Positions 30,016 through 51,329 of a DNA stretch of 64,000 nt are shown here, piece by piece. The position numbers and the translations under genes were made by a program. Under the pieces are notes generated by a model. The model saw only the letters and a list, made by a program, of their open reading frames with translations, was not told the origin of the DNA and ran no database searches. The stretch's first letter is position 1. Each line of letters begins with the position of its first letter. The DNA comes from an uncultured Bacteroidota bacterium (GTDB taxonomy: Bacteria; Bacteroidota; Bacteroidia; Flavobacteriales; Flavobacteriaceae): positions 1 through 64,000 of the forward strand of contig CACOGA010000008.1 of NCBI GenBank assembly GCA_902626585.1, written 5' to 3'.

Positions 30016-31407
30016 CTAAGTCATGTTTCTTGGATCGACTAATTGGTCGTACTCTTCAGCGGTCAGATACCCTGATTTAATAGCTTCATCCCTCAATGTA
30101 GTATCATTTTTATAAGCATTGTTAGCAATCTCAGCAGCCTTGTAATATCCAATTTTTGGATTTAATGCAGTGACTAGCATCAATGAGTTATCTAATTTTT
30201 TCTTTATTGATTTTAAGTTTGGAATTATACCAATAATACAGTTGGAATTGAAACTATTGACAGCATCTGCGATTAATATTGAAGAATTAATAAAATTATA
30301 AATAATCACAGGTTTAAAAACATTTAGTTGAAAATGTCCCTGAGTTCCTGAAAAAGTAATAGCTGAATCATTTCCAATAACCTGACTACACACCATTGAC
30401 ATTGCTTCACATTGAGTGGGATTAACTTTACCAGGCATGATTGAACTTCCAGGTTCATTTGCTGGTAAAATTATTTCACCGATTCCGCTTCTGGGTCCTG
30501 ATGAAAGCATTCTTATATCATTTGATATTTTATTTATTGAAACAGCAATTTTTTTTAAAGAATTGTGACAATCAACCAATGAATCATTAGAAGATAATGC
30601 CTCAAACTTATTTTCTGCAGTAACGAATGGATAACCTGTTTCATTAGCAATTATTTTAGCAACTTTTTCAGAGTATCCATCTGGGGTATTCAAACCTGTT
30701 CCAACTGCCGTACCTCCAAGAGCAATTTCTAAAATAAATTTCATCGAGCTTTCCAAACTAATAATACCATTTTCGATTTGCTTTTTAAAAGCTGAAAATT
30801 CTTGACCTAATGTTATAGGAGTTGCATCCATCATGTGTGTTCTTCCGATTTTCACAACATCTTTAAATTCTTCAGATTTATCGTGAAGGGATTTTTTTAA
30901 ATCCTCGAGAGCGGGAAGGGTTTTTGTTGAAATCAACTTATAGGCAGCAATATGCATTGCCGTTGGAAATGTATCATTAGAGGATTGAGATTTATTTACA
31001 TCGTCATTGGCTTTAACATATTTTTCATCTTTTAAGTCCCTCCCAATCAATTGTTGACACCTATTTGATATCACCTCATTAACATTCATATTAGTTTGAG
31101 TACCAGAACCTGTTTGCCATACCACTAGTGGAAACTGTTCGTCATGTTTACCAGTGGTTATTTCATCACAAACTTTGGAAATTAGATCCATTTTTTCTTT
31201 TGAAAGTACTCCGCATGAATGATTTGTGATGGCAGCTGCTTTTTTAACAATAGCATATGCGTAGATTATTTCTATTGGCATTGATGACTTAGGTCCAATT
31301 TTAAAGTTATTTCTCGATCTTTCAGTTTGAGCACCCCAAAGTTTGTCAGCGGGTACCTTAACTTCGCCTATAGTATCTTTTTCGATTCTGTATTCCATGG
31401 TTAGCAA
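30016..31407 (-). CDS. fumC: Class II fumarate hydratase
   Basis: '[35 protein letters not shown]', '[24 protein letters not shown]'. Confidence 0.97.
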
Positions 31408-50478: not shown

Positions 50479-50486
50479 TATATTTG
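50479..50486 (+). promoter_or_regulatory. Candidate -7 element (TAnnTTTG) for the sigma-factor gene
   Basis: TATATTTG 78 bp upstream of ATG 50565, leaving a long 5'UTR. Confidence 0.4.
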
Positions 50487-50509
50487 ACTTATAAATTTAT
50501 GCCTATAGA

Positions 50510-50566
50510 ATAACATTACTTTAAAAATCTTAATAAAACTCAGTTTTAATTAATAAGTAATGTTAT
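50510..50566 (+). promoter_or_regulatory. Long inverted repeat in the 5'UTR pairing with the sigma-factor start codon
   Basis: ATAACATTACTT (50510-50521) is the exact reverse complement of AAGTAATGTTAT (50555-50566). The right arm contains the A and T of the ATG. An inner hairpin TTAATAAAAC-TCA-GTTTTAATTAA lies between. Confidence 0.7.
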
Positions 50567-51149
50567 GAAAAAACCATTAATTGCAGATTCCGTTTTAGTT
50601 TCAAAATATATTTCTGGGCATGAAAAATCGCTAGAGATTCTTATTAATCGTCATAAACAAAGAATTTACTCATTTATTTATTCTAAAGTCTATGACAGGG
50701 ATTTAACGGAGGATATATTTCAAGACACTTTCATTAAGGTGATAAGAACTTTAAAATTAGGCAACTATAATGAAGAAGGTAAATTTATATCTTGGGTAAT
50801 GAGAATTGCTCATAATTTAGTTATAGATCACTTCAGAAAAAGTTCAAGAATACCAAAATTTGAAAATTCGCATGATTTTGATATTTTTTCAGTTTTAAAA
50901 AACACGGATATCGATATTGAAAATAAAATGATTAAAGATCAAATTCTTGGAGAGGTTAAAAAGATAATCGAATTATTGCCAGATGATCAAAAAGAAGTAT
51001 TGATATACAGATACTACAACGATTTAAGTTTTAAAGAAATTTCTGAAAAAACTGGGGTTAGTATTAATACATCTCTTGGGAGAATGAGATACGCATTAAT
51101 CAATCTAAGAAATATTATTAAGAAGAAAAATATAATTTTAACCAATTGA
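50565..51149 (+). CDS. RNA polymerase sigma factor, sigma-70/ECF type
   Basis: Region 2 'RIYSFIYSKVYDRDLTEDIFQDTFIKVIRTL...GKFISWVMRIAHNLVIDHFRKSSR', region 4 'LLPDDQKEVLIYRYYNDLSFKEISEKTGVSINTSLGRMRYALINLR'. Confidence 0.95.
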   Translation: MKKPLIADSVLVSKYISGHEKSLEILINRHKQRIYSFIYSKVYDRDLTEDIFQDTFIKVIRTLKLGNYNEEGKFISWVMRIAHNLVIDHFRKSSRIPKFENSHDFDIFSVLKNTDIDIENKMIKDQILGEVKKIIELLPDDQKEVLIYRYYNDLSFKEISEKTGVSINTSLGRMRYALINLRNIIKKKNIILTN

Positions 51150-51191: not shown

Positions 51192-51329
51192 ATGGAAAAA
51201 AACTACTTTTTTCAAGAGAAAATATCTCTTGAGCCAAAAAGAAAAACTATTAATTTTATCTTAAGTTATTCTAAGTCTATAAAAGCTCAAAGAACAAGTA
51301 TGGGTAATTTATTATTAGATTTAAATTAA
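51192..51329 (+). CDS. Small protein (45 aa) directly downstream of the sigma factor
   Basis: MEKNYFFQEKISLEPKRKTINFILSYSKSIKAQRTSMGNLLLDLN*. Too short for the ORF track; overlaps the nth 3' end by 9 bp. Confidence 0.65.
   Translation: MEKNYFFQEKISLEPKRKTINFILSYSKSIKAQRTSMGNLLLDLN

Follow-up and report, generated by a model that had tools for sequence, protein, structure and literature searches.

In Escherichia coli, the leader of the rpoS mRNA masks the ribosome-binding region by folding over it, and stays off until the small RNAs (sRNAs) DsrA, RprA and ArcZ open it with Hfq. Sigma-factor genes are also classic targets of RNA thermometers, E. coli rpoH being one example. In flavobacteria, initiation requires reduced structure at the start region and makes no use of a Shine-Dalgarno (SD) sequence (PMC9976891); in Flavobacterium johnsoniae, a second source likewise has initiation tuned by the structure of the mRNA rather than by the SD (PMC6847099). 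The rpsU gene of the same species is autoregulated by bS21 (PMC9976891), and structured 5′ elements have been described in F. psychrophilum, among them the pheA, hisG, ftsY, acsA, alaS and rimP leaders and others in Table S7 of that study (PMC9723704).

Here we describe the leader of a gene for an ECF-type RNA polymerase sigma factor in a 64,000-nt stretch of DNA (the window) from an uncultured member of the Flavobacteriaceae. Like rpoS, it is a sigma mRNA with a self-occluding 5′ leader, which we propose stays off until a trans factor acts; unlike rpoS, the leader is much shorter, carries a conserved box, GCCUAUAG, at its 5′ side and has no SD in Flavobacteriales, and no homology is evident. 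By analogy, we take it to work like an rpoS-type self-inhibiting sigma leader, one lying outside every family tested. It resembles the F. psychrophilum elements in being a conserved structured Flavobacteriaceae leader that lacks an Rfam match, but the leaders named above do not include this sigma leader (PMC9723704). We found no description of the element in the literature, although one instance may be among the 64 in Table S7 of that source (PMC9723704). The reading that we favour, and hold to be probable, is a default-off translational leader of the ECF sigma gene, opened by a trans factor for which the box is the recognition site.

The sigma gene (50565..51149, + strand) encodes 194 aa with sigma-70 regions 2 and 4 (Pfam Sigma70_r2, 2e-14; Sigma70_r4_2, 1.7e-10), which identifies the product as an ECF sigma factor, and the protein is related in sequence to solved ECF sigma factors, e.g. 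SigH and SigE. The same sigma factor is present in 132/149 genomes of the class, about one in each, and is thus nearly universal in Bacteroidia. A divergent gene, named uvrA from its sequence, lies across the intergenic region. The whole leader RNA element (50497..50570, +), delimited by the covariance models R1 and R2 presented below, contains a helix whose 5′ arm, ATAACATTACTT, lies at 50510..50521 (+) and whose 3′ arm, AAGTAATGTTAT, lies at 50555..50566 (+), both arms being supported by complementarity, folding and covariation. The initial annotation had described the 12-bp arms as exact reverse complements with the right arm entering the start codon, and a re-check of the coordinates agrees: the ATG occupies 50565-50567 and is overlapped by the 3′ arm. 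RNA folding also recovers the inner hairpin reported there, TTAATAAAAC-TCA-GTTTTAATTAA (50530..50553, +), with one A bulged; in relatives its pairing is retained while its sequence varies.

Judged from the window sequence alone, the hairpin is weak evidence, being only mildly unusual. A fold of 50490-50620, which had been suggested as a check, yields the long hairpin with its apical hairpin at an MFE of −17.3 kcal/mol (z −1.27), and the tighter element gives a folding z of −2.39. The window has 5 inverted repeats whose arms are perfect over ≥12 positions and whose loops are at most 60, where a first-order Markov model predicts 1.07, and the sigma start region is the third least accessible among 50 window genes. 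Because these figures (z −1.27; 5 against 1.07) are too weak by themselves, the significance of the hairpin comes from conservation and covariation. Over 147 leaders the median folding z is −3.31, with 93% of them below −2.

The −7 box of the form TAnnTTTG that had been reported at 50479..50486 (+) is present as TATATTTG, a sigma-A (primary sigma) element with a predicted TSS at about 50492. Within 120 nt 5′ of the element, 130/146 unique leaders have such a box, where shuffled sequences would give 19; its usual distance from the GCC box is 11-36 nt, and no leader has it inside the element. Since a sigma-A promoter box stands upstream in most leaders, the fold is predicted to lie within the mRNA, i.e. 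the hairpin belongs, on sequence grounds, to the mRNA leader. In many members of the family, the promoter core 5′ of the leader, GGAATGATTGTTGTTATATTTG, shows unusual conservation (promoter region of L015-L031). The initial annotation had also allowed that the repeat might be a DNA operator. As such, it would be a palindromic site between uvrA and the sigma gene, bound by a repressor dimer. While its perfect 12-bp arms and its place between two divergent genes fit that idea, the promoter is upstream of the repeat, compensatory changes occur in two nested helices (next paragraph), and the box-to-ATG distance, like the element length, ranges from 60 to 100 nt across leaders, free of strict helical phasing. 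Because both nested helices covary and the distance varies, an operator is strongly disfavoured, and we consider it extremely unlikely.

Sigma matches were found in 88/100 relatives. Leaders of the best 29 orthologs share, with few exceptions, a common plan that runs from GCCTATA through the 5′ arm and the loop to a 3′ arm ending in ATG; the 5′ arm is ATAACATTACTTTTAA-like, and the loop bears an apical hairpin of variable sequence. The 3′ arm of the wider family usually has one extra bulged base, which is absent from the window's genus. The relatives' leaders hold the compensatory changes that the initial annotation had proposed to look for, and do so in both nested helices. Among 12 family leaders, two-sided changes affect 12/25 pairs, more than in any of 500 shuffles or in any slid control, and every one of the eight modelled apical pairs has two-sided changes. 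Among 101 distinct leaders they affect 16/25 pairs in both helices, and double-changed cells number 254 against 99.8 (sd 7.8) in shuffled data, with 0/500 shuffles reaching the observed count and slid controls at ≤65, in an alignment fitted to the covariance model and hence biased towards it. A further test that needs no alignment, with only the box and the ATG as anchors, again shows more pairing than expected at positions that can vary freely. The element is a conserved RNA structure and a putative cis-regulatory leader, its compensatory changes standing above the controls for relatedness and for alignment. As to the loop, an unpaired motif, AACCCC, is conserved in most family leaders (L015-L026) and missing from the window's genus; ACCCC is present in 82/136 unique leaders.

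R1, a covariance model built from 12 family leaders of other genera only, with the window's genus left out, finds the leader in the window's genome at 31.5 bits as the sole match there, and recovers the leaders of congeners also. It matches in 133/301 family genomes, once per genome with a single exception; this count is a lower bound, because the window's own genus escapes the stricter filters that large scans use. At 148/149 loci an ATG stands at the modelled position with a sigma ORF behind it, and the sigma ORFs behind matched leaders are 59-100% identical to the window's protein. One genus (g152) has its AUG just outside the helix and not within. Named carriers include Winogradskyella, Gelidibacter, Tamlana, Olleya, Bizionia, Mangrovimonas and Aquimarina. 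The model R2 scores the window's leader, one of its own training rows, at 45.7 bits (E 6e-5 per genome). Across the phylum at E≤0.01 its matches are confined to Flavobacteriaceae, and in the order it gives one weak match in another family. The window's genome holds no extra copies of the element elsewhere, and Rfam returns no match for the leader at gathering or weak thresholds.

The best-conserved part of the element is the single-stranded box GCCUAUAG, which sits 5′ of the helix at its foot; in the window it is GCCTATAG (50501..50508, +), and its conservation extends across family, order and class. GCCTATA is exact in 112/136 unique family leaders. Exact GCCTATAG is found in 6/17 leaders from other Flavobacteriales families (0.0 in shuffles) and in 6/20 from other Bacteroidia orders (0.06 in shuffles), so that the box outlives the helix, being exact in 12/37 leaders beyond the family against 0.06 expected. 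An own-versus-cross permutation (0/5000) is partly inflated by composition and related sequences, for which reason a separate complementarity test was added: the post-box segment is significantly complementary to the start region in the majority of tested Flavobacteriales leaders (mean z −2.5) and in roughly half of the remaining ones (mean z −1.6). The evidence for conservation beyond the family is the reading of ortholog leaders, the box counts and this complementarity test, not R2. Outside Flavobacteriales, roughly half the tested leaders have the box but lack a significant helix, so that the two parts may differ to some extent in function. A second GCCTATAG in the window, at 31366, runs antisense within an ORF and is no more than chance predicts. 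The 16S and 23S rRNAs of one relative contain no exact complement of the box. Dimerisation via the palindromic CUAUAG in the box was considered and dropped, because variants of the box do not preserve the palindrome. Strong SD-like sequences of the AAAAAGGAGGT type lie 5′ of the sigma start in L294, L295, L298, L299, L301-L303, L305 and L306, all from Bacteroidia outside Flavobacteriales, in a class that mostly avoids SDs. The conserved box, the wide distribution and the small downstream gene (below) are additions to what the initial annotation had contained.

In the mechanism we propose, the primary sigma factor would transcribe the gene from the promoter just upstream, and the nascent leader would form a long, AU-rich hairpin with a second hairpin at its apex. 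The 3′ strand of the long hairpin would be the translation initiation region, usually the AUG itself, and the helix over it would block initiation, leaving the sigma factor translationally off by default. Since flavobacterial ribosomes skip the SD and need an unstructured start (PMC9976891), the helix should repress translation. When the sigma factor is needed, a trans-acting factor, either a protein or an sRNA, would read GCCUAUAG and open or hold the helix. That no part of the leader is better conserved than this unpaired box is most readily accounted for if the box serves for recognition. What the comparisons show is the structure with its covariation and conservation, its place at the start codon and its single-copy association with the sigma gene; we infer the repression by the leader, from the published properties of these ribosomes, and more weakly the release by a box-reading factor.

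Occlusion of the start codon, with temperature or a factor as its control, had been the central proposal of the initial annotation. The mRNA-leader fold over the ATG stands, with covariation, but temperature as the trigger does not. Were the leader an RNA thermometer, its AU-rich helix would melt on warming and expose the start codon, and the start codon does lie within an AU-rich hairpin, so that, as in rpoH and the ROSE and fourU thermometers, leader structure occludes the start region of a stress regulator. Unlike those, the leader is insensitive to temperature in its computed opening from 4 to 50 °C: the opening of the start region goes only from 0.13 to 0.23 in the window, and its median over 147 leaders from 0.12 to 0.17. 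No Rfam thermometer family matches, and a plain thermometer would have no use for the unpaired box, which is the best-conserved part. A simple thermometer is rejected on this computed melting, the helix being closed from 4 to 50 °C, and we regard a thermometer as quite improbable. Because the computed helix stays closed on warming, something other than temperature must open it.

That something could be a state of the ribosome. The 3′ arm might ancestrally have sequestered an SD, with translation carried out mainly by ribosomes whose anti-SD is free (e.g. those lacking bS21), as has been proposed for rpsU. Parallels with the F. johnsoniae system (PMC9976891) are that a single conserved Bacteroidia gene is involved, that control is proposed at translation and that the 3′ arm is SD-like in several non-flavobacterial leader homologs; in several non-Flavobacteriales leaders (e.g. 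L294, L295, L298 and L302), AAAAAGGAGGT-type SDs lie immediately 5′ of the ATG and opposite the CTACTTTT arm. SDs are normally avoided in Bacteroidia, and loss of bS21 frees the anti-SD (PMC9976891). However, the gene is a different one, a hairpin is present, and the window and Flavobacteriaceae leaders have no SD: the arm in Flavobacteriales, the window included, is AAAAGTAA or AAAAGTAG, which is not an SD, and a strong SD is absent before the window's sigma ATG. Moreover, SD control in that system is restricted to rpsU (PMC9976891). We judge a ribosome-state sensor unlikely, and return to a factor that would read the box.

One place to look for a partner is the region just downstream. An unannotated 45-aa ORF, MEKNYFFQEKISLEPKRKTINFILSYSKSIKAQRTSMGNLLLDLN (51192..51329, +), begins 42 nt after the sigma stop and has homologs in family loci: a small ORF of about 47 aa lies 3′ of the sigma gene, in the same orientation, in 221/238 of these. 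Its differences by codon position (36610:19935:75206) indicate that it is coding, and its profile at E<0.01 hits 22/40 downstream stretches, nearly all of them from other families or orders. The family consensus is MAKLYS..LNPKEETVNFLLNYSKALSVIxCNKLKFEALLN; neither Pfam nor NCBIfam gives a match to the small ORF. Larger genes in the same direction are farther off, past a convergent nth-like gene. We consider the small ORF a possible sigma partner. In another Flavobacteriales family (L343, L348) the small protein is longer, with an N-terminus of LLQYSYGEL-ERDRKEVEALC-QDPYLRDEL; by eye this longer form, MAKTFTPDFLLQYSYGELNERDRKEVEALCIQDPYLRDELEMINESKALL..., looks like the N-terminus of a soluble anti-sigma factor, a likeness for which Pfam gives no confirmation. 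This resemblance suggests that the 47-aa form is a shortened descendant. Tandem sigma duplicates are found in one locus (L025, 284-865 and 1489-2070), each followed by its own small ORF. The element (182-289) precedes the first sigma copy only, and the sole match at another tandem pair (G052) likewise precedes the first copy.

The arrangement raises the question of feedback, in which the sigma factor itself or the small downstream protein would bind the leader and shut or open translation. The small ORF follows the sigma gene in the 221/238 family loci just mentioned, and the element was found only on the sigma operon and nearly always in single copy, as expected for an autoregulatory site. 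Yet an RNA-binding domain is recognised in neither protein, and the longer, anti-sigma-like small protein of the one family would act on protein instead. We give feedback of this kind a small chance, and keep to a default-off leader that would be opened through its box.

With its fold kept by paired mutations family-wide and its box kept class-wide, this leader of a stress-type sigma gene in marine flavobacteria looks like an undescribed translational switch. We regard as evenly balanced the broader proposal of a new, class-wide Bacteroidia leader-RNA family. Its members would combine the GCCUAUAG box with a start-covering helix and would serve one near-universal ECF sigma operon, which also encodes a tiny conserved partner protein; their reader would be an RNA-binding factor or sRNA yet to be discovered. 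To our knowledge, few translational-control mechanisms are described in Bacteroidia, where the SD is largely ignored. A covarying leader that occludes the start codon offers a direct handle on how a conserved, stress-type regulator may be switched without an SD, and what reads GCCUAUAG becomes a testable question. The conserved micro-ORF beside the sigma gene supplies a candidate partner protein. If true, the class-wide leader family would be a general translational switch for sigma synthesis in a class that hardly uses the SD.
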